NCBI GenBank assembly: GCA_012520615.1 | Contig: JAAYNX010000222.1 | Coordinates: forward strand, 1-52,653 | Reading direction: 5' to 3' | DNA from: Clostridiaceae bacterium | GTDB lineage: Bacteria; Bacillota; Clostridia; DSM-8532 | Length of the DNA stretch: 52,653 bases | Shown: positions 7,773 through 40,381 of the stretch, in pieces | How the letters are laid out: every line of letters begins with the position of its first letter | Position numbering within the stretch: position 1 is the first letter of the stretch | Translations under genes and position numbers: made by a program | Notes under the pieces: generated by a model | Seen by the model: only the letters and a program-made list of their open reading frames with translations | Told to the model about the DNA's origin: nothing | Database searches by the model: none

Positions 7773-8603
7773 TCAACTACTTGTATTTGCAATGGCAATT
7801 TTTCGCTTATCAAAGTATGATGCTAAAACTCTTTCCAAATCCAATACATCCTGCATCTCAAAGAAGCCTTTTCTACCTTTGATGAAGCGCACACCTCTCA
7901 TAGCTCCGTCTGCGAAAGCTTTTCGGTTGAAAGATTCGTGCACAATCTCTATTTTATCATTTTCCCCAGCAACCATTAGCTCATGTCTTCCAACTATACC
8001 ACCGGCTCTGACAGCATGAATGGGTATTGATTCGTTTACTTCCACGCCCGAGGATTGCAGCCCTTCTTCAATTTGGCCTGCAATTTTTAATGCAGTTCCT
8101 GATGGAGAATCTTTCTTATACTTATGGTGAGCTTCACTTATTTCAAAATCATAATCTGTCAAAATACGAGCAGCTATATTTGATAAAAGCATCATTACAT
8201 TTACGCCCACGGTTATATTGGGCGCATGTAGAATGCCCGAACCATTCTTTTTTGCCAACACTTTCATACGTAAAATATCAGTTTTAGAAAAACCGGTGGT
8301 GCCGATAACTAAAGCAGCCTTTTTTTCTGAAATACTTGCTACATAATTCATCGTCGCTTTATAATTTGAAAAATCAATAAAAACATCGGGTTTAAGTTTT
8401 TCAAGGACATAATTAAGCTGATTTGGTGGATAAATTTTTGCCCCTATTTCGGGCAATCCCAGAATTTCTCCGATATCTTTTCCAGCTTTTGTTGAGAATT
8501 CAGAACAAATGGCCCCTACAAGCTTCATATCTCGCTGTTTTAGAATAACTTTTGCAATTTCCATGCCTGTTCTACCAAGACCAATTATGCATACATGGGT
8601 CAT
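7773..8603 (-). CDS. dapB: 4-hydroxy-tetrahydrodipicolinate reductase (DapB-like)
   Basis: The NAD(P)H-dependent reductase of the diaminopimelate/lysine pathway, cytoplasmic; 276 residues. The N-terminal Rossmann motif is GLGRTGMEIAKVI (the usual GRMG reads GRTG). GTTGFS and the substrate-binding/catalytic signature EAHHKYKKDSPSGTA follow, so the active site looks intact. The start is moved to MTHVCIIG, which has GGAGGAG about 6 nt upstream; the track's TTG lies on the Shine-Dalgarno itself. A c-di-AMP riboswitch occupies its leader, so expression is probably tied to the envelope/osmotic second messenger. In a spore former the pathway also feeds dipicolinate and cortex/peptidoglycan. dapA is not in the window, so this could be one of two copies in the genome. 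Confidence 0.93.
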   Translation of the reverse strand: MTHVCIIGLGRTGMEIAKVILKQRDMKLVGAICSEFSTKAGKDIGEILGLPEIGAKIYPPNQLNYVLEKLKPDVFIDFSNYKATMNYVASISEKKAALVIGTTGFSKTDILRMKVLAKKNGSGILHAPNITVGVNVMMLLSNIAARILTDYDFEISEAHHKYKKDSPSGTALKIAGQIEEGLQSSGVEVNESIPIHAVRAGGIVGRHELMVAGENDKIEIVHESFNRKAFADGAMRGVRFIKGRKGFFEMQDVLDLERVLASYFDKRKIAIANTSS

Positions 8604-8664
8604 AAAATCTCCTCCAATCAATTTTTAGTAAAAATACTGGATGCGCAATTTTATGACGTTACAA

Positions 8665-8805
8665 CATAATAACCACCCTCTCCTCCAACGCTTACGAGAT
8701 TAGCTGACGGGTTCGGATCGAAAGAGTATAACCCTACCGGTTTACCGGATTCACCCCATAAATTGGTTTTCCCGCTCTTTAATAGCAAAGATTAAGCGCT
8801 TACTT
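8665..8805 (-). promoter_or_regulatory. c-di-AMP riboswitch (ydaO/yuaA class) upstream of dapB
   Basis: The minus strand carries the ordered conserved blocks of the ydaO class: AAAGAGCGGGAAAACCA, then ATGGGGTGAATCCGG, GGTAGGG, CGATCCGAACCCGTCAGC, and TAATCTCGTAAGCG followed by GGAGGAGAGGG. Helix-closing CGCTT/AAGCG segments lie at the ends. It begins about 200 nt and ends about 60 nt before the dapB start, on the same strand, with a promoter farther upstream. Members of this class usually turn genes off when c-di-AMP is high. I did not find a textbook terminator between aptamer and gene, so the output mode is open. Confidence 0.93.
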
Positions 8806-8900
8806 TATTTGAACAACCTCAGAGATGCAACATCGCATAAAGACGTTAGAAAATTATATGCGGCAATCTAATAGAATATTCGCAGTTTGTAAGCTTTTTA

Positions 8901-29883: not shown

Positions 29884-31143
29884 TCATACCCGTTGAATAT
29901 CTGCACCAAGTCTCTGTAATTTATTCTCTATAAATTCGTACCCTCTGTCAATATGATGTATGTCGAGGACCTCTGTTGTTCCGGTAGCGGCAAGTCCTGC
30001 AATTATAAGCGCCGCTCCTGCCCTTAAATCCGTTGCACGCACCTGCGCCCCCTGTAATGTCTCTATACCTTCTATAATTGCTGTTCTTCCGTCTACGCGT
30101 ATTTGAGCGCCCATTCTTCTAAGTTCATTTACATGCATGAATCTGTTTTCAAAAATAGTTTCCACAATAACGCTGGTTCCTTCGGCAAAACAGACATACG
30201 CAGATAATTGGGCCTGCATATCTGTTGGAAAGCCGGGAAACGGATGGGTCTTAATATCCAAAGCCATAGGCCTGTTTTTACCTATGACTCTTATAGTATT
30301 ATTTTCTTCTATGATTTCGATGCCTGATTCCCGCAGCTTAGCCGTTACAGGTTTTAAATGCTCGGGAACTACATTTTTAAGGGTTATGTCTCCGCCGGTT
30401 AACGCCGCTGCTGTCATAAATGTTCCGGCCTCAATTCTGTCTGGCATAATGGTATGTTCCGTGCCATTTACCTTATCCACACCATCTATTGTTATCGTAT
30501 CCGTTCCCGCTCCGAAGATTTTTGCTCCCATTTTGGTAAGAAATGATGCTAAATCTACTATTTCAGGCTCCGATGCCGCATTTTCGATTACTGTCCGCCC
30601 CTCAGCCAATACTGCCGCAGTTATCAGGTTTTCAGTTGCTCCCACGCTAGGAAAATCAAGATAAATAGTTGCTCCATGCAGCTTTTTATCGGGGCAATAT
30701 GCCTCAATGAAACCATGTCCGTTATTTATTTGCGCACCCATAGCCTCAAAGCCTTTAAGATGGAGGTCTACTGGTCTGCTTCCGATGGGGCATCCTCCTG
30801 GCAAAGCAACTTTTGCGGTTCCTGTTCTGGCAAGCAAAGGCCCCATTACCAAAAAAGAAGCCCGGAGCTTGTTTACCAATTCATACTCTGCAGTATGACC
30901 GGTAAGAGATTGGGCTGATACTGTAATTTTTCTTGATCTTCCGTTTACTTTTACATTTGCCCCCAAGTTTGATATAAGTTCGCACATATCCGAAACATCA
31001 TCTAACCCCGGAATTTGTTTGATGAGGCATTCCTCTGCTGTTAATAAGCATGCAGATATAATGGGGAGAATAGCATTTTTTGAACTTGAAATTAATGCAG
31101 AGCCCATTAAAGGCTTTCCCCCGTTAATAACAAAAGCTCCCAT
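29884..31143 (-). CDS. murA: UDP-N-acetylglucosamine 1-carboxyvinyltransferase
   Basis: First committed step of peptidoglycan synthesis, adding enolpyruvate from PEP to UDP-GlcNAc; cytoplasmic. 419 residues, the normal length. Substrate-binding SSSKNAILPIISACLL at the N-terminus, the active-site loop LPGGCPIGSRPVDLHL with the catalytic Cys (fosfomycin target), DFPSVGATENL, and PGFPTDMQAQLSA all match. The start is ATG at 31143, with AAGAGG 8 nt upstream; the track's GTG is too close to that site. Firmicutes often have two copies (murAA, murAB); which one this is cannot be told here. Downstream of the two giant surface-protein genes on the same strand. Confidence 0.96.
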   Translation of the reverse strand: MGAFVINGGKPLMGSALISSSKNAILPIISACLLTAEECLIKQIPGLDDVSDMCELISNLGANVKVNGRSRKITVSAQSLTGHTAEYELVNKLRASFLVMGPLLARTGTAKVALPGGCPIGSRPVDLHLKGFEAMGAQINNGHGFIEAYCPDKKLHGATIYLDFPSVGATENLITAAVLAEGRTVIENAASEPEIVDLASFLTKMGAKIFGAGTDTITIDGVDKVNGTEHTIMPDRIEAGTFMTAAALTGGDITLKNVVPEHLKPVTAKLRESGIEIIEENNTIRVIGKNRPMALDIKTHPFPGFPTDMQAQLSAYVCFAEGTSVIVETIFENRFMHVNELRRMGAQIRVDGRTAIIEGIETLQGAQVRATDLRAGAALIIAGLAATGTTEVLDIHHIDRGYEFIENKLQRLGADIQRV

Positions 31144-31250
31144 ATACTTCACCTCTTAATTTTTATGTAAAAGTCTTTAATGAAGCTTTTGTTCATGTCT
31201 TTATTATTTTCTTAAAACTTAGTTTCAATCATGGTAAATAATCTTGTTTT

Positions 31251-34200
31251 TTATAAATCTCCGCAAATTCGCAATGTGCGCTCAAGCATAACCAAAAAAT
31301 CACCAAAAGTCATCATTCTGTCAGGGTATGCCAAGCTTGTAGCATTGCCTTGAAGTATACCTTTTTCAAGGGCAAATTTGTAAGAATTTAAATATCTGTT
31401 TTCAGCCTTATTTAAGTCAGTATAATGTGACCAAATTCCCGGTTTCGTGGGTATAGCGCTTTCACGGGTTTTAAATTTGTAAAATTCAATTAATAAATTT
31501 ACGGCCTTATCCCTTCTGACGTAGGAATTGGTTACCTCTCCCGAATTGTCTATTAGCCCTGCACTGACAGCTTTTTGAACTATATCATAGTCGTTATATT
31601 CTGTCTCTAGCACATCAAACAAAAGCTTTAATATATCCTTTTGCGTCATATGAGCATTGTGATTAAAATTCGTATTTTTTATACTCTTCAAATCATAAAT
31701 CTTCTGAATTCTTTCCATGCTTTCTCTTACATACAAAGGAACAGTTGTTTGAGGCTTAATCTCATTTGTTGCAGCCACAATTGCCCCCGGTTTATCCAAT
31801 TCCCCTATGACACGGCCAAGTGAATAATCAGTGAATGTGGGCAGCTTATACCAACTCTGGTTTGAGCTACAAGCAAAGGTATTAATCTGTCCTTGTGCGT
31901 AGCTTCTTATGTCTGTAACAGGCAGTTCAACCCTGATTGGTATGTTGAGCGTATTTATTGGGCTGCCTTGTATATACGAAAATTTAAAGTCGGTAACCGG
32001 AGTTTTAAAATTCATATTTGCCGATGGTGTGTATTGGCTTGCTGGTGAAAGGGTTTCCAATCTAAAGTCCAATACATTATTCTTTGTTTTCATCTTAAAG
32101 TATGAATCTGTATGAAAAGTACCGGGCCTTATTGTGTACTCACCCCAAGGTAGTATAAGATAGAGCTCCTTTTTTAGCTCTGCTAAAGTATCTATTACAA
32201 CAGAGCTTAAATCCAACCTAATTATAGAGGTTCTTTCAGGAGGAACAGAGAGATCTATTTTTACAATCGATCCATATTGGCTTCGGATTCTTTCTCCCAA
32301 AACATGAGCATCATCACCCTGAGAAGAAATAACCCATATACCGTCTTCAAGCTTGGCCGGAATATTAAGACCGTCGCCCGTTACAGCTTCTTCAAGATCA
32401 AAGCTGCCGTCATACTCGTTTTTGCTTTTGTTGGTTATAACCATAATAGTACGGGTAGGCATACTCCGAAGTTTGGTTGTTGGGTCGTACGCATAAAGCC
32501 TTGCATAATAGCGCCTGTTAGATATCAATCCGGTAGCCGTATATGTATCGCTGTTCACTTCAATTGTTTTCGAACCTGTAAAATTCAAATCCTCGGAAAA
32601 CTCCAAGAGATATAAAAGTCCGCTTTCCTGAACCCAGATATAGGTTATACTGCTTTCGGTGACACCATTTGGACCAGTATCAACACCGAATCCGGTAGGC
32701 GGTGCAGGAGGCTTGTGGGCTTCTGTTTTTATAACCAGCGGGTTGCTAAATTCCGATTCTATAGCATTTCCCTGAGAGTCTATGCTGATTGCCTTTATCC
32801 AGAAATAATAAACTGTATCGGACTGGAGTGAATCCACTCTGAAAAAGGTGTTGTTTTTTATTTGTTCATAGCTGACCTGCTTTATTATGGTCGCTTGTTC
32901 CAGTTTATCGCTGGTACCTCCTCTGATTTCATAATTCATATCAATAAAATATGTCCAGAAAAGGTCTACAAAGGTTGAGGCTGCAATGCCCTTTAAATCA
33001 ACGGGCACTGTCGGGGTTACCGGAGTTTCCGGAACATCTACAGGAGTAGTAATAATTATGGGGTCGGAAGGATCGGAAGAAACCCCGTTCTGATTTTCTA
33101 TGGTAACCCAGACCAGGTATGTAGTATTATCGTTAAGACCTGATATATCAAAGCTAAAGGTCTGGTCTTCATCATCCTGCAGGTCAGGAACATTGAATCT
33201 CTGTTGCGGAATTTCAAAGGCTTGGATATCAGGTTGAGATAAATCGCTGTATGCTATAAATGGTTCATCCCTGTTATTTCTCATACTAATAGCGTTTACA
33301 GCCTCATTGTAGCTAACTACATGAGGAACCACTGACCACCCGGTAAGATATTCAAACTTTTTACCAATTTTTTTATCATCATATCCCTCGTCACCGGGAT
33401 TAAGTTCGTCATTCGCTATGTAATCGTCCTTGGAGACTTGGTCCCATCTCTCGTCATTAGCATTATATAAAGCATACCATGTTTTATCCAGTACCAGCGT
33501 TGCGCCTGTTAACGTAACGCTGTCAGACCCGTCAGCATTTACTTTTAATCCAAATGGCGGCGCAGAAGGGGCTTCCGGTCTGTCAGCTCCCGCATCGGGA
33601 TCTGTAATAATTACCTTCACCGATTGCTTTGATACATATGGCATAGTTATCATAAAACCATCGGTAGGGCTTTCTACCAGATAGCTCTTTTTCGCATATA
33701 TCACAAAATAATATGTTGAGTTGGATTTTAAGCCAGTCAGATCATATCTGTATCCAATAACCTCGCCCGAAGCTTTGCTCCTAATCATATTTGATTCGCT
33801 GATTGTCAGGTTTGAGGCAATCATAAAGTTGGACGGCGGATTGCTGACATCCTGTATATCTTCCAACAAATAAACATCGTAGGTTACTTCATTGTCAATA
33901 ATACCTTCCCCTGTTCTGGGTGGTTTCCAAAAAATTGATGCACTAAAGGGCGTGAGAAAGTCTTCATACTTTAAATCAGAATCTGCAGGAGGAAAAGAAT
34001 CTACAATCTCAGGAGCCTGGGGCTGCTGGGGAATCTGTTCCTTAAGCATAACCTTGTTATTGGATCTGAAATCAACTGGGGTAAGCGAGCCCGGCGCATA
34101 AGCTTTGGCATCAATTTTAAAGCTATATGAATTAGTGTCACCCTTTTTAACTGTTATCTGATAACTGTCAATATCAGGAATGAGTCTGTATAGCTTTCCT

Positions 34201-35144
34201 TCCGGCTCATTATTGACGTAACGGTACAGCTCGTAATCAACTCGGGTAAAAGTGCTCCCCTTAACAATCGGATTCCAGAAAAGCCTCCAGATAGTGTCCC
34301 CTTCATTATTGTAGCCTACCTTCTGAGCTTTAAGAAGAATATCAGTTTTAATTGTAACTGCTTCTATCTCTTCTGCCGTGGCATAAGCAACACTAGCGTT
34401 AGGTTGAGGAACAACTTTTATTGAATATTCCCGGCCGGGCATGGCATGGGTATATACATACTCCAGTTTTTTCTCGGCACTGTTTATGGTAACATTGGAA
34501 CCCGGTTTACCTATTTCAGATGCTACTATATCTGGAATTGGCGGGGGCTGAGTAAAACCCTTGGTATCAGATACCAGAATTTTATAGTTAATACGGCCGG
34601 TGGTGTCCCATACATCATCCCATTTGATTTTCATGTTATTGGTGCCGGGTATAAGCTCTACAGATACATGCAGACCTGTCAGAAACTTTGCAGGATTAGA
34701 TTTCTGCGAAGTAATAGTGTACTGACCTGTAGGAGTATTAATCTTATATTGTGATTTTAAATAGGTTTCATAAATAGTTCCATGCTTTATACCTTCCGGC
34801 GTATACTCGGTAAATCTAAAGCTTGTGGCAGCACCGTTCAAGGGAATAGTCATCGCTTCTTGAATTACTTGCCCCGAACCGGTCGAAATCTCATTCATTC
34901 CTACAATTATATATCTTTCATCTGCTTCGGCAGGGAAATTAGTTATGGACCAAGTCCAGCCTAGTTCTGCATACCATTCGCTGCTGTTTACATTTTTAAC
35001 ATAGCCTATATCAGTGACCTTGTTCTGGCTGGGCGGCTGCAGAAGCATGGTGTCAGCAAATATACTTGGGCTCGGTATAAGCCCCAGCATGAATGTAAAT
35101 ACAAGCAGGATTGCTATTATTTTAATTTTTATTTTTTGGTCCAT
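31251..35144 (-). CDS. Large secreted fibronectin-III-like surface protein with SLH-like C-terminus
   Basis: A 1297-residue exported protein. Signal peptide 1-30 (hydrophobic IIAILLVFTFMLGLIP, probable cleavage SIFA|D). Several Fn3-like beta-sandwich repeats follow across about 40-900; their closing strands are visible as TYYFVIYAKKS, TTYLVWVTIENQNG, TVYYFWIKAIS and RRYYARLYAYDP. A different beta-rich domain comes next (~915-1130). The last ~120 residues look like S-layer homology units: DKAVNLLIEFYKF, then HYTDLNKAENRYLNSYKFALEKGILQGN and AYPDRMMTFGDFLVMLERTL. It is therefore probably anchored to the cell-wall secondary polymer. AAAGGAG precedes the ATG, 23 nt after the sister gene. No enzymatic module is visible; a structural, adhesive or spore/S-layer role is inferred. 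Confidence 0.82.
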   Translation of the reverse strand: MDQKIKIKIIAILLVFTFMLGLIPSPSIFADTMLLQPPSQNKVTDIGYVKNVNSSEWYAELGWTWSITNFPAEADERYIIVGMNEISTGSGQVIQEAMTIPLNGAATSFRFTEYTPEGIKHGTIYETYLKSQYKINTPTGQYTITSQKSNPAKFLTGLHVSVELIPGTNNMKIKWDDVWDTTGRINYKILVSDTKGFTQPPPIPDIVASEIGKPGSNVTINSAEKKLEYVYTHAMPGREYSIKVVPQPNASVAYATAEEIEAVTIKTDILLKAQKVGYNNEGDTIWRLFWNPIVKGSTFTRVDYELYRYVNNEPEGKLYRLIPDIDSYQITVKKGDTNSYSFKIDAKAYAPGSLTPVDFRSNNKVMLKEQIPQQPQAPEIVDSFPPADSDLKYEDFLTPFSASIFWKPPRTGEGIIDNEVTYDVYLLEDIQDVSNPPSNFMIASNLTISESNMIRSKASGEVIGYRYDLTGLKSNSTYYFVIYAKKSYLVESPTDGFMITMPYVSKQSVKVIITDPDAGADRPEAPSAPPFGLKVNADGSDSVTLTGATLVLDKTWYALYNANDERWDQVSKDDYIANDELNPGDEGYDDKKIGKKFEYLTGWSVVPHVVSYNEAVNAISMRNNRDEPFIAYSDLSQPDIQAFEIPQQRFNVPDLQDDEDQTFSFDISGLNDNTTYLVWVTIENQNGVSSDPSDPIIITTPVDVPETPVTPTVPVDLKGIAASTFVDLFWTYFIDMNYEIRGGTSDKLEQATIIKQVSYEQIKNNTFFRVDSLQSDTVYYFWIKAISIDSQGNAIESEFSNPLVIKTEAHKPPAPPTGFGVDTGPNGVTESSITYIWVQESGLLYLLEFSEDLNFTGSKTIEVNSDTYTATGLISNRRYYARLYAYDPTTKLRSMPTRTIMVITNKSKNEYDGSFDLEEAVTGDGLNIPAKLEDGIWVISSQGDDAHVLGERIRSQYGSIVKIDLSVPPERTSIIRLDLSSVVIDTLAELKKELYLILPWGEYTIRPGTFHTDSYFKMKTKNNVLDFRLETLSPASQYTPSANMNFKTPVTDFKFSYIQGSPINTLNIPIRVELPVTDIRSYAQGQINTFACSSNQSWYKLPTFTDYSLGRVIGELDKPGAIVAATNEIKPQTTVPLYVRESMERIQKIYDLKSIKNTNFNHNAHMTQKDILKLLFDVLETEYNDYDIVQKAVSAGLIDNSGEVTNSYVRRDKAVNLLIEFYKFKTRESAIPTKPGIWSHYTDLNKAENRYLNSYKFALEKGILQGNATSLAYPDRMMTFGDFLVMLERTLRICGDL

Positions 35145-35167
35145 AAGCTTGTTCTCCTTTGGATTCT

Positions 35168-38100
35168 CTAATTAAGCTCTTCCAAAACCTTGGATACCAT
35201 ATCTAGCATTTCACCAATGGTTGTTCTGTCGTTTGCTTCAAATCTATTATTATTAAGGATAACGAGATTTAAATCTACTCCCAGAACCACATAGGGGTAT
35301 AAGCGAGGGGTTATTTCGGTACCATTTGCAATGGATATAGTTCTGGATGGCTTCATAAATTCCGGATTTATGCCAGCTTTCGTACAATAGAGCTTAACCG
35401 CCATTGAAACAGAGGATTGGTTATCCATATACCCGGTGAGCTGGCTTCTTCCAATAATACCGTCTATACCAAGTTTTGAAGCTTTTTGAGCCGGAGTCAT
35501 TCCAATAATTTCGCCTTCTCTTCTAGTTACCACAGCATAGAGCATAACAGCCTGCTCACCACTTAACGGATTAGCCGGGTAGATGGTTCCCTGCCCGAAT
35601 ACCTTGGTAAGATCATAGCGGGATGACAGGTAGGAATAAGAACCGCTGCCCGATGTACCGGGCTGTGTAATTATTTCCCCTTTGTTTATTACAAGATACT
35701 CTCCCGGTTTTTCTGCACGGAAAAGCACATATTGCATAACATAGCCTTTGCCTCCGGCAGGTTCCATAAACCCTGAACCGTAATTAACAAATGGAGTAAT
35801 ATAACCGCTTCGATAAGTATACTCAATATTTACACCTATTCTTCCGGGCAACTCATTTATCCCTTTAGTTACAAGATAATTTGCTGGCATTCCGCTTCCG
35901 CCATCGATAATATCCCTCAAATAACGGGAGAGCTCTATTTCAATCTTGTTAATAACTGAATCTATCATGTCCTTGAGCTCTATATGGCTCTTATAGCTGT
36001 GACTTGCCAGATTGTTCAATATTATGGTAAGTTCACGGTCGATAATTCCGTACTTAAATGGCCCGGTGGCATCGGGGTTTCTAAGAATGTCATACAGTAT
36101 ATTGTTTATTTCTGCATATGTAAGGCGCGAACCTACGGCGACAGTCTGAAGTTCATACGCTTTAGAAATTAATGTAATGCCGCTAGGTAAAGGATTTTTC
36201 GGGCTTTGCCTACGGTTTATTTTCAAAAGAAGCATGGCCTCCTTTGCCCCGCCTGCCAGAGCCTTCGCCTGTAAATCTGCAAGATCGATACTGCCCTTAT
36301 TAAGAGTAAATTCAGCCCCTAAAATTTTAATATTAAGCCTGCTCCCGTAGGCTTCAATTGCTTGCAATGTCTTATTGGGGATGAGCACCTCATAATATGA
36401 TGTATTTGCTTGCTCTGCTGATATATTCACCGTAACGGTGGAATTCCTAGATGCCTTCAGCAAGCCTTCAATTCTATCGTCCTTTAATAAAACCCTGACG
36501 GTAGAGTCGTCCTTTTTATCAATCCGCCAGTAAAGCTTTTGGGTTAGCTTATCCGCTGAATAATTAAACAGATCGATAACATTTTCTTCTCGCTTTCCTT
36601 CGTCATAGTCAGCCTGGGAAAAGTCTGTTCTTGCTGTAACAGGCCCTATATGGAGAGAATCTTCCAAGTTCTGGGCCCATAGTTTAATATAATACAGGGT
36701 ATTGGACTTTAACAATTGATTTGTTAAAACACCGTTTTCGTCCTTTACCGGTTTCCCTCTAATTTTTGCGTAATAAATATATTTGGAAGAGCCTTCATCC
36801 ACATAGATACGGGTTTTCTCGCGGTAAAACTCAATTCTTCCCCACTCGGTTTCATAGCCATAATCAGTATGCCCGGTGGCACTGTAATTTAACTGCTGGT
36901 ATTCAGAATCACTGTCTGTTCTGGCCTCTAAAAAGTAACGATACGGGGCCTCCCCTTCAAAACGTATCTCTATTTCTTTTAAGCCGTCCCGGGTTTTCTC
37001 CTGTATAGGCGCTCCTCCTTCATCTACCCAGGTGCTGCTCTTGTTGTCATACCATTGTCCATTGTCTTTGTTTTTTACTTGTACATCATACCATTGATTG
37101 GAGTTTAAATTGTACATCCTGAAATAATAGGTGGTTCCATCCTGTACACAAGTGTATTCAGCTCTGTTCAGAAGGACATATTCTGATTCCGCTTCTTCCG
37201 CTTTTTTAAGATAAACCTGCATAGAATCCGCAGTAGCACCGGGAGCGGTGCTTTGAATATTGAAACCTATCTCCATGTCCTTAACAGCTTCAATAAACGC
37301 CGGGGCTTTTACCATACGGGTTGTGACGGGTATGGTAATCCATCTGCTTGTGGTTTCAATAGACTCCCCTTCTGTATCTGTCTGATTTCTATTTCGAACT
37401 GCTCTAAGGCTGAAGAAATAAATCCTGTTAGGCCTTAAAAAGTCCCTGCGTATGGGCATAAGAACCTGTCCGTTTTCGCTCACGGTAAGTTTGATATTCT
37501 CAAGGGCACTATCATTTATATCCAGATGCAGCTTACTATCACCGGCAGGATTTCTGAATTCGTTGTATGCCTCAAGAAAATTAATGTTTACGGCGTCATT
37601 CTCATAATCAGCATCATCTGCCCTTTCAGGGATGGCTTTCGATGTACAAACCATTTCATAGGTAACATCCTTTTCGGCGTGAAGCCAGTTTAAGATAACC
37701 CAGGCATCACTTAGAAGCAATTCTCCGTCTTCATCAACTGCGATAGAAAATTCAGCAGGCGCCCGGGGGTCTCTATAATCATTATCCAAACCTCCGTCAT
37801 CTATTTTCGGAGTAGTAATGGTCTTCACCGCTGTATCCACTGAGCTGCCGAGCTTTTCATCCCCTACCATGAGAGTTGCTCTGGCTTTAATGTAATATAC
37901 GGTATTTGGAAGGATCGGGGTGCCATCTTTATCATTATAAATGATTGTTTCTAGCATAGGTTCTTCTGCTCTTAAAGTTGAATATGAAACTTCATCAACA
38001 ACATCGGGATTTTCGCTAAAATTAGACGAATCTCTGCTAATAAAAAATTCGTATCTAATGGATCTGCCATCAACAACATCAGTATAGCGCTGCCACTCCA

Positions 38101-40231
38101 CATTGGTCAGGATACGGGGGTATTCTACCCGGATTCCGTCCAACTCTATTTCGCCTGTTACCGGATCGGGATCAATATTTGGCTCAATATGCAGACTAAT
38201 ATCGGGCATGGGTACCGGTGTTTCTGTTAAAGGCCATGTAGTGAAGCTAATAACAGGCGATTTGTAAGAAAGGCGGTTGTTTAAATCACTGCTCAGTCCA
38301 TCAGCCCATAGTTCATCATATATGTCGTCATTATCCTCCAGACGGGAGGAGAAAATCTGCATAAAATATGTGGTGTTGGGTACCAGAAAATCAGGGTAAT
38401 CGCCGGGTATAAGGTTTTCATCCGGGTCTTCGTTATTTTCCTTTGTAAGTTTCGATCCGCTTACATAATCGTAGAAAAGATTATCTCCCGGCAAAGTATT
38501 ACTATTGCTGTACTCGGGATCCCCCGGATCCTGTGGGATTTTGCATATTATTCTGTTTGGGTTATCAGGATCCTGAATAAAATGCTTTTTACCCAGAACC
38601 AGCACTCGCTTTTGAGCTGTAGGCAAATAAATCTCCTTGGGATTTGTTGTGCCTATTTTAGTGGTACTTACTGCTTTTTCTGTGTCAGGTAAAAGGGTCG
38701 ATAAAAGGATATGGAATATTATATCTGAACCAACTTCTGGCTTGCTTTTAAAGGTTTCCCAATCCTCGGTTCTCCATGACAAAGGCTTTTCAAATGATAG
38801 TTGCAAATCGTTTATTGGTATTTCCACTTCACCGCTAGAAAGCTCTGTTGTAGGCACTGTTACTGTGTCACGCCCTGAATATATCGCCTCGACTCGGATT
38901 TCCTTAGGAAGAGGCGGCTTTCCGGAATCTACACCTAAATTTCGTATATCAATGGCAAGAGATGAGCTTCTTGGTTTATCAGAGGAGCTATCATAATAAA
39001 CCACTCTGAAATAGTATTCCGGGTTTTGGTTGCCATCAATTACTATGTTTACGATTTCACTTCCGTAGTCCACGGAGGCTTGCAATGACGAAGCAGGTAT
39101 TTTGACCCATTTATTCGTATCTGTGTATAGATCCTGTATACGGGGCGCATATTGAACTTGATAAAAAAGCTCCGGATAATTACCGTTCACTATTTTTTTA
39201 AACCGCACCTCTACCTTATCAGTATCAATCTTTGTCAGCTCCATTTGCATCGGGGTAAAAATAGAGGTAAGATTGTGCCCGATACCTTTAAAAGCATTAT
39301 CAATATTTTTTACAGGGAAACGGTTTCCACTATCTGTTTGCAACTTGGTTATTCTTGTGTTTACCTGTTCCGAAGCAGCGTTTTCAAATATAATACCTAT
39401 GTTGGTAAAGGCATATTCGGTTCCAGGCTCTATACCCTCTTCTTTTTTAAGAACTACCGAAACAACGTTGTCAGGATCGGTAACTAAACCGTTCTCAAAT
39501 CCACTGACTGAAGCCGTCTTTCCCTCAATTATCATGTTGTTTTCAGAGTCATAGTCAGTAGTAAAATTAAGCTGACGTGTTGAGCCTTGCCCTACTGTCA
39601 TATTGATTTGGAAACAGGCTTTGCTTATTGGAGCTTCTGAAGTTTGAAGAAGTTCTAAGGCTTGTGGTTCCGTTAAATCTACCAATTCATGAGTATTACG
39701 ATTATATATGGTTGGTATTTTCCAGTTTAATTTCATTATGGGGTTGTCCCCGCTTTTTACAAGGACAGCATTGCCTTGGGTACTGCCTTCCGGCTCTAAT
39801 ATAGGGGCATCATCCTCGATATCTTTCATTTTAGCCATTACATTGAAGGATTCACCCGTAAAAGTGATATCGGCAAGATAATAAGTCTCTCCATAATGAG
39901 ACAACGCACCATCTCCTGCCCTGTAAATACTTAGGGACAAATCATAAATATGGTCTGGCGCAAGCTCTGTACTTACTATAACCTTTCCGTCTTTATATTC
40001 CCCTAACACCGTAATTACTTCATCAATATTTGCCGGGTTATGATATGTAAGCTCTGAACGCGCTGGCTCGTTTAGTAAGGGATAACTTATTTCATATTTG
40101 TATGTAACAGGGTTATATTCTACCGTCAGGTCAATTCCCTCAGCAGCAAAAGTTTTTATTTCAGTCGGTAACCCTGATAAAACAAGTATTAATACCAAAA
40201 GCAGCGATATGACTTTTTTGAATTTATTCAT
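35168..40231 (-). CDS. Giant secreted fibronectin-III-like surface protein (1687 aa)
   Basis: First gene of a two-gene operon with its paralogue. Signal peptide 1-29 (ISLLLVLILVLSGLP, cleavage near TFA|A). Fn3-like repeats fill about 40-1220, with closing strands such as TTYFMQIFSSR, TVYYIKARATL, RIYFFSLRAVRN, TTYYFRMYNL and TLYYIKLWAQN. From ~1230 a separate beta domain resembles those preceding SLH modules (NSTVTVNISAEQ, LNIKILGAEFTL). The end shows degenerate SLH-like units: TIYPANPLSGEQAVMLYAVV, then LTGYMDNQSSVSMAVKLYC, then RFEANDRTTIGEMLDMVSKVL. It shares the overall plan with the 1297-residue protein but has more repeats. GGGGG precedes the ATG. No catalytic module seen; function unknown. 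Confidence 0.82.
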   Translation of the reverse strand: MNKFKKVISLLLVLILVLSGLPTEIKTFAAEGIDLTVEYNPVTYKYEISYPLLNEPARSELTYHNPANIDEVITVLGEYKDGKVIVSTELAPDHIYDLSLSIYRAGDGALSHYGETYYLADITFTGESFNVMAKMKDIEDDAPILEPEGSTQGNAVLVKSGDNPIMKLNWKIPTIYNRNTHELVDLTEPQALELLQTSEAPISKACFQINMTVGQGSTRQLNFTTDYDSENNMIIEGKTASVSGFENGLVTDPDNVVSVVLKKEEGIEPGTEYAFTNIGIIFENAASEQVNTRITKLQTDSGNRFPVKNIDNAFKGIGHNLTSIFTPMQMELTKIDTDKVEVRFKKIVNGNYPELFYQVQYAPRIQDLYTDTNKWVKIPASSLQASVDYGSEIVNIVIDGNQNPEYYFRVVYYDSSSDKPRSSSLAIDIRNLGVDSGKPPLPKEIRVEAIYSGRDTVTVPTTELSSGEVEIPINDLQLSFEKPLSWRTEDWETFKSKPEVGSDIIFHILLSTLLPDTEKAVSTTKIGTTNPKEIYLPTAQKRVLVLGKKHFIQDPDNPNRIICKIPQDPGDPEYSNSNTLPGDNLFYDYVSGSKLTKENNEDPDENLIPGDYPDFLVPNTTYFMQIFSSRLEDNDDIYDELWADGLSSDLNNRLSYKSPVISFTTWPLTETPVPMPDISLHIEPNIDPDPVTGEIELDGIRVEYPRILTNVEWQRYTDVVDGRSIRYEFFISRDSSNFSENPDVVDEVSYSTLRAEEPMLETIIYNDKDGTPILPNTVYYIKARATLMVGDEKLGSSVDTAVKTITTPKIDDGGLDNDYRDPRAPAEFSIAVDEDGELLLSDAWVILNWLHAEKDVTYEMVCTSKAIPERADDADYENDAVNINFLEAYNEFRNPAGDSKLHLDINDSALENIKLTVSENGQVLMPIRRDFLRPNRIYFFSLRAVRNRNQTDTEGESIETTSRWITIPVTTRMVKAPAFIEAVKDMEIGFNIQSTAPGATADSMQVYLKKAEEAESEYVLLNRAEYTCVQDGTTYYFRMYNLNSNQWYDVQVKNKDNGQWYDNKSSTWVDEGGAPIQEKTRDGLKEIEIRFEGEAPYRYFLEARTDSDSEYQQLNYSATGHTDYGYETEWGRIEFYREKTRIYVDEGSSKYIYYAKIRGKPVKDENGVLTNQLLKSNTLYYIKLWAQNLEDSLHIGPVTARTDFSQADYDEGKREENVIDLFNYSADKLTQKLYWRIDKKDDSTVRVLLKDDRIEGLLKASRNSTVTVNISAEQANTSYYEVLIPNKTLQAIEAYGSRLNIKILGAEFTLNKGSIDLADLQAKALAGGAKEAMLLLKINRRQSPKNPLPSGITLISKAYELQTVAVGSRLTYAEINNILYDILRNPDATGPFKYGIIDRELTIILNNLASHSYKSHIELKDMIDSVINKIEIELSRYLRDIIDGGSGMPANYLVTKGINELPGRIGVNIEYTYRSGYITPFVNYGSGFMEPAGGKGYVMQYVLFRAEKPGEYLVINKGEIITQPGTSGSGSYSYLSSRYDLTKVFGQGTIYPANPLSGEQAVMLYAVVTRREGEIIGMTPAQKASKLGIDGIIGRSQLTGYMDNQSSVSMAVKLYCTKAGINPEFMKPSRTISIANGTEITPRLYPYVVLGVDLNLVILNNNRFEANDRTTIGEMLDMVSKVLEELN

Positions 40232-40264: not shown

Positions 40265-40317
40265 TTTGCGCATCATTATTCGCAAATCAGATTTAAAGAT
40301 ACTATTACTATATCTTT
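40265..40317 (-). promoter_or_regulatory. Two small hairpins in the leader of the giant surface-protein operon
   Basis: TTTGCG/CGCAAA (40265-40286, 10-nt loop) and AAAGATA/TATCTTT (40295-40317, 9-nt loop) lie 35-85 nt before the start codon. They may be operators or leader-RNA structures. No known riboswitch pattern was seen. Confidence 0.4.
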
Positions 40318-40381
40318 ATCGACATATTAAGCCCTGTTTTTAATGAGCCGCTCCATTACATTTTGTTTACTAATATGGGAC

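Follow-up and report, generated by a model that had tools for sequence, protein, structure and literature searches.

Two adjacent genes of a Clostridiaceae bacterium (assembly GCA_012520615.1, contig JAAYNX010000222.1) are devoted to two giant proteins without any evident enzyme, and the question arises what kind of cell-surface function would require such a pair. Gene A (35168..40231, minus strand) encodes a secreted Fn3-array protein of 1687 aa and gene B (31251..35144, minus strand) one of 1297 aa; here the window means the whole stretch of 52,653 nucleotides that was analysed, to which all positions refer. An earlier note on this DNA had described A and B as a tandem of exported proteins oriented toward murA (29884..31152, minus strand; UDP-N-acetylglucosamine 1-carboxyvinyltransferase, TIGR01072), which lies outside the A-B module and serves as a synteny marker. 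Both open reading frames are found there, with gaps of 23 bases between A and B and 98 bases between B and murA, all on the minus strand, and a Sec-type signal peptide, read directly from the sequence, stands at the start of each protein. A sortase motif was found in neither of the two window proteins. Two tandem L-asparaginase II genes (PF06089; 40459-42583, minus strand) are located directly upstream of A. A c-di-AMP riboswitch (RF00379, 100 bits; 8673-8808, minus strand) precedes the gene at 7773-8621, and the Rfam search gave no RNA element near A or B.

The bulk of both proteins is an Fn3-type region, which extends roughly over residues 35-1205 of A and 38-906 of B. In the window, Fn3 scores 57 bits in B (Pfam cut-off 25) and 12.5 bits in A, below the cut-off, and it is matched at E <= 0.01 in 13 of 25 A orthologues; in addition, the domains of A align to the Fn3 domains of B with a probability of up to 96% in profile comparison. 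The Fn3-like arrays noticed earlier are thus borne out in both proteins, in B by Pfam and in A through its orthologues and the alignment to B, each with several Fn3 domains recognized by profile. The repeated strand-end motif TxYYxxIxA, also noticed earlier, is present in four copies in A and four in B, and residue shuffles gave a mean of 0.06-0.08 copies and never reached four in 1000 shuffles. The significant Pfam families among 51 A and B orthologues are Fn3, SLH and Ig/Fn3-like relatives, the remaining matches being scattered singles near E 0.01. NCBIfam added nothing to the Pfam domain content of window A and B, and no catalytic or binding module was found in these two proteins by Pfam and NCBIfam or in the 51 orthologues by Pfam, so that the profile search for a hidden enzymatic or binding domain, proposed as a refutation of the enzyme-free description, came back empty. 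AlphaFold models of the two proteins, built from four close sequences, have a mean pLDDT of 43 and 37, and Foldseek searches with these low-confidence models gave PDB matches mainly to Fn3-type tandems; structure prediction, which had been suggested as a check, confirms Fn3 to this extent, and the models are too weak for more. Long Fn3 strings on SLH anchors are an already known kind of surface protein.

The anchors are situated at the C-terminal ends, where a pre-SLH domain (about residues 1205-1360 in A and 906-1090 in B) precedes a degenerate SLH triplet (about residues 1515-1687 in A and 1115-1297 in B). SLH domains anchor proteins to the cell-surface wall polysaccharide. Pfam gives no SLH match above cut-off in window A or B; SLH is matched at E <= 0.01 in 12 of 26 B orthologues and 8 of 25 A orthologues, and the B protein of the C. 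cellulolyticum type reaches 21.4 bits (Pfam cut-off 20.8). Furthermore, among solved structures the profile of B finds, besides many Fn3 chains, the SLH trimers of the S-layer protein Sap, namely 6bt4 (E 3e-5) over residues 1114-1287 and 3pyw (E 7e-5) over residues 1132-1287. Residues 1530-1687 of A match the SLH region of B with an E value of 1.5e-22 in profile comparison, and both C-terminal ends thus comprise three consecutive SLH repeats with homology to an SLH trimer of known structure. The degenerate SLH-like ends that had been suspected are therefore real, by orthologue matches and by matches to the Sap structures, despite the missing Pfam match in the window. Most TRAE-type wall-polymer-contact motifs have disappeared from the SLH repeats of the window's family, window A and B included, where the third repeat reads TIGEM in A and MTFGD in B, while most other families retain TRGE or TRAE in this repeat. 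The last ~370 residues of B are common to unrelated SLH proteins in other families (E 1e-31 to 1e-35), and they consequently represent a common anchoring cassette. The csaB pyruvyl transferase (TIGR03609) is over cut-off in 20 of 20 genomes tested (265 bits in G000), and many other SLH proteins are present in all 20. The csaB match sits within open frames of ~750 aa in most genomes, which suggests a fused CsaB.

A and B had also been called paralogous. This relationship is invisible to BLASTP, which gave no alignment (E 0.25), but it is clear by profile comparison, in which hhalign joins A and B end to end over 1202 columns (E 6e-55), most clearly in the C-terminal parts (SLH region E 1.5e-22, preceding domain E 1.6e-13). 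On this profile evidence, A and B are clearly full-length ancient paralogues.

The phylogenetic spread of the pair, which the earlier note had proposed to follow, was examined at several levels. Among the 32 genomes of the window's family, B is found in 27 and A in 29, each time at full length and as one copy per genome except where contigs are split. Of the 291 genomes sampled across the class, 20 outside the family carry A, and strong B matches outside the family come from exactly these 20; in the phylum sample B occurs in seven of seven genomes of a Caldicellulosiruptor-like genus, which we take to include C. bescii, C. kronotskyensis and C. owensensis, with A adjoining B in all four loci read. 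Moreover, the A-B order is conserved in all loci read from ten families, out to Caldicellulosiruptor. Judged from these genomes, A-B is no local oddity: the module is old, its two genes always come as a pair, and many clostridia have it. A member of the window's family that is 98% complete (G025) is without A and B though its genus relatives have both, apparently by joint loss, and in G205 (L094 2997-7879) gene A appears broken, with a TGA and split frames, and B is intact. Caldicellulosiruptor is described as non-sporulating; all seven Caldicellulosiruptor-like genomes carry a full-length spoIVA.

The surroundings of the module vary among families. In families other than the window's, the genes usually come in the order atp operon (or other genes), A, B, C, ywmB, murA, spoIID and an M23 peptidase gene, where C is a third SLH protein of ~288 aa with intact SLH repeats that usually comes after A-B. 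In the window's family, C is missing from the block and murA stands directly after B, followed by a 5'-deoxynucleotidase gene and not by spoIID. The A-B-C block of Caldicellulosiruptor lies away from murA and spoIID and neighbours a gene whose N-terminus is read as UDP-GlcNAc 2-epimerase. The murA surroundings that had hinted at sporulation are the ordinary ywmB-murA-spoIID-spoIIQ block, which is the usual neighbour of the module. In a C. cellulolyticum-type genome (G163; L081 1-4815), two extra SLH genes precede A, one encoding a 766 aa SLH-Fn3 protein and having an exact sigma-D type site (L117), the other encoding a protein of 830 aa that combines BslA, SbsC C-terminal and SLH domains.

A further clue is found upstream of A, where a putative sigma-D (sigma-28) type site, TAAA-N15-GTCGATAA (40316..40342, minus strand), is located 84 nt before the start of the gene. 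The sigma-D consensus described in B. subtilis, TAAA-N13-16-GCCGATAW, has also served to find direct targets in C. difficile (PMC3865298); the window site agrees with it at 11 of 12 positions, and sites of this type are found upstream of A in other families too. Alignment of the region upstream of A from ten congeners gave a conserved 15-base box followed by TAAA-N15/16-GCCGATAA. The box, which lies upstream of the sigma-D type site, reads GTAAACAAAATGTAA in the window (40356..40370, minus strand) and mostly GTAAAGGAAWTGTAA in the relatives; in the loci read, GTAAAGGAAWTGTAA is confined to the region upstream of A in members of the window's genus, and it is possibly the site of a regulator. 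Of 26 A loci, 24 have an upstream site with at least 10 of 12 matches, a level that 38 of 227 other genes in these loci reach. The motif was discovered in the window's genus, and the independent test consists of 16 upstream regions from nine other families, in which 15 of 16 A loci have at least 10 of 12 matches against the same 38 of 227 other genes (Fisher 3e-10) and 8 of 16 have at least 11 of 12 against 8 of 227 (Fisher 5e-7), both p values being optimistic because the regions are related. Among 2426 permutations of the motif, not one scored as high as the motif itself. The exact pattern occurs 37 times in six whole genomes and 5 times in the window's own genome, against 19 and 4 for the reversed-pattern control, and at only about twice the control overall single matches are weak, so that the case rests on the conserved position. 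Genes with an exact copy in front of them include a flagellar rod gene of the window's genome, cheW (G026), motA (G485) and, from the A-B cluster of G163, its first SLH-Fn3 gene. Generic sigma-70 and terminator scans stayed at chance level. The site and its conservation suggest that A-B may be under sigma-D control.

Taken together, A and B may be an ancient paralogous wall-anchored pair of motile cells, used for surface attachment or movement, a reading in which we place about as much belief as doubt. The A-B genes would be transcribed by a putative sigma-D RNA polymerase in motile cells, and the two proteins would leave the cell through Sec and be bound by the pyruvylated secondary wall polymer, in whose synthesis CsaB takes part; given the erosion of the SLH motifs in the window's family, their hold on the wall is perhaps weaker there or depends on contacts of another kind. 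The Fn3 strings would then reach out from the wall and act jointly in attachment to, or movement over, surfaces, for example plant fibre. We infer the wall attachment, the joint action and the attachment or movement role from sequence, and attachment to surfaces or movement over them is one option among several for what Fn3 strings may do. As to the heteromeric surface structure suggested by the earlier note, the pairing in the same 20 genomes outside the family fits two parts working together and does not by itself prove that they associate physically. It is a tentative and rather speculative extension that the obligately paired Fn3-SLH paralogues might constitute a two-protein apparatus, or with C a three-protein one, assembled together on the wall under the flagellar sigma factor, inherited since before Caldicellulosiruptor split from the other sampled clostridia and undescribed as a system. 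In the main texts of the searchable open-licence literature, we found no account of the ten-family pairing, of the three-gene block or of the motility-type promoter, and no paper on A or B turned up there by topic or by locus tag, the tags being estimated from genome position.

The same anchors allow a reading as cell-envelope structure, in which A and B would form an S-layer lattice, as its subunits, or a spacer layer associated with the S-layer. Motility would have no particular part in this, and the promoter motif would be incidental or mark just one of several promoters. We regard this as a serious possibility, still short of probable. The SLH anchor cassette, the all-beta beads, the lack of an enzyme and the status of single-copy core genes in the window's family are what such a structure would show; murA and wall genes adjoin A-B in most other families, and the Caldicellulosiruptor neighbour read as UDP-GlcNAc 2-epimerase is possibly an enzyme for a wall-polymer precursor. 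Main S-layer proteins are usually very abundant. However, a conserved sigma-D type site is unexpected for a constitutive lattice protein, and the genomes contain many other SLH proteins.

We judge it unlikely that A and B are adhesins for plant fibre or cellulose or serve as accessory spacers in a surface system that degrades polysaccharides, although several of the carriers resemble cellulolytic clostridia and Caldicellulosiruptor, in whose extracellular enzymes Fn3 beads are common. No carbohydrate-binding module, dockerin, cohesin or hydrolase was found in any A or B member scanned, and the neighbouring genes are not carbohydrate-degrading. This reading overlaps with that of a surface pair of motile cells if attachment is the purpose. 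Least of all do we favour a role in spores or at a stage of sporulation, under regulation shared with the spoIID-spoIIQ neighbourhood, a very improbable reading that takes up the sporulation coat of the earlier note and the usual position of the module upstream of ywmB-murA-spoIID-M23 outside the window's family, but is opposed by SLH anchors that belong to wall polysaccharide, by the sigma-D type footprint upstream of A, by a module away from murA and spoIID in Caldicellulosiruptor, a genus described as non-sporulating, and by the 5'-deoxynucleotidase gene in place of spoIID after murA in the window's family; spoIVA is present in 20 of 20 A-B genomes tested, Caldicellulosiruptor included, so gene content does not decide a spore role.

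With A and B read as a wall-anchored pair of motile cells, a family-wide core pair of ~9 kb gains a testable place, anchored to the wall and standing behind a motility-type promoter sequence. If true, this would tie the surface architecture of biomass-degrading clostridia to their attachment and motility, and it would explain the joint occurrence of two non-enzymatic giants.

Several known systems resemble the pair in part. The SLH-Fn3 polysaccharide-degrading enzymes of clostridia and Caldicellulosiruptor share with A and B the Fn3 spacers and the same pre-SLH and SLH cassette, but they possess the catalytic or binding modules that A and B lack. SLH surface proteins of the type of Bacillus anthracis Sap and Paenibacillus alvei SpaA (PF00395) likewise have a signal peptide, an SLH triplet and csaB in the genome, whereas A and B have largely lost their SLH motifs in the window's family, have a long Fn3 array as their body in place of S-layer assembly domains, and always come as a paralogous pair. 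In C. difficile, expression of the surface adhesin gene cbpA falls in a sigD mutant (PMC3865298), so a surface protein gene with a sigma-D link has a precedent, although A and B belong to different protein families with different anchors and their own link consists of promoter sequence. CmoA of Paenibacillus sp. NAIST15-1, a large extracellular protein of Ig-like beads, seems to be part of the flagellar regulon, and movement on hard agar requires it; unlike A and B, it is a single protein with vWFA and IPT/TIG domains, and it was detected in the secreted and the surface-associated fractions (PMC5072692). No homology is claimed, but CmoA resembles A and B as a large extracellular protein built from beads and apparently under flagellar-type control, which for A and B is a prediction, and by analogy it indicates that a motility role is possible for bead proteins of this kind.
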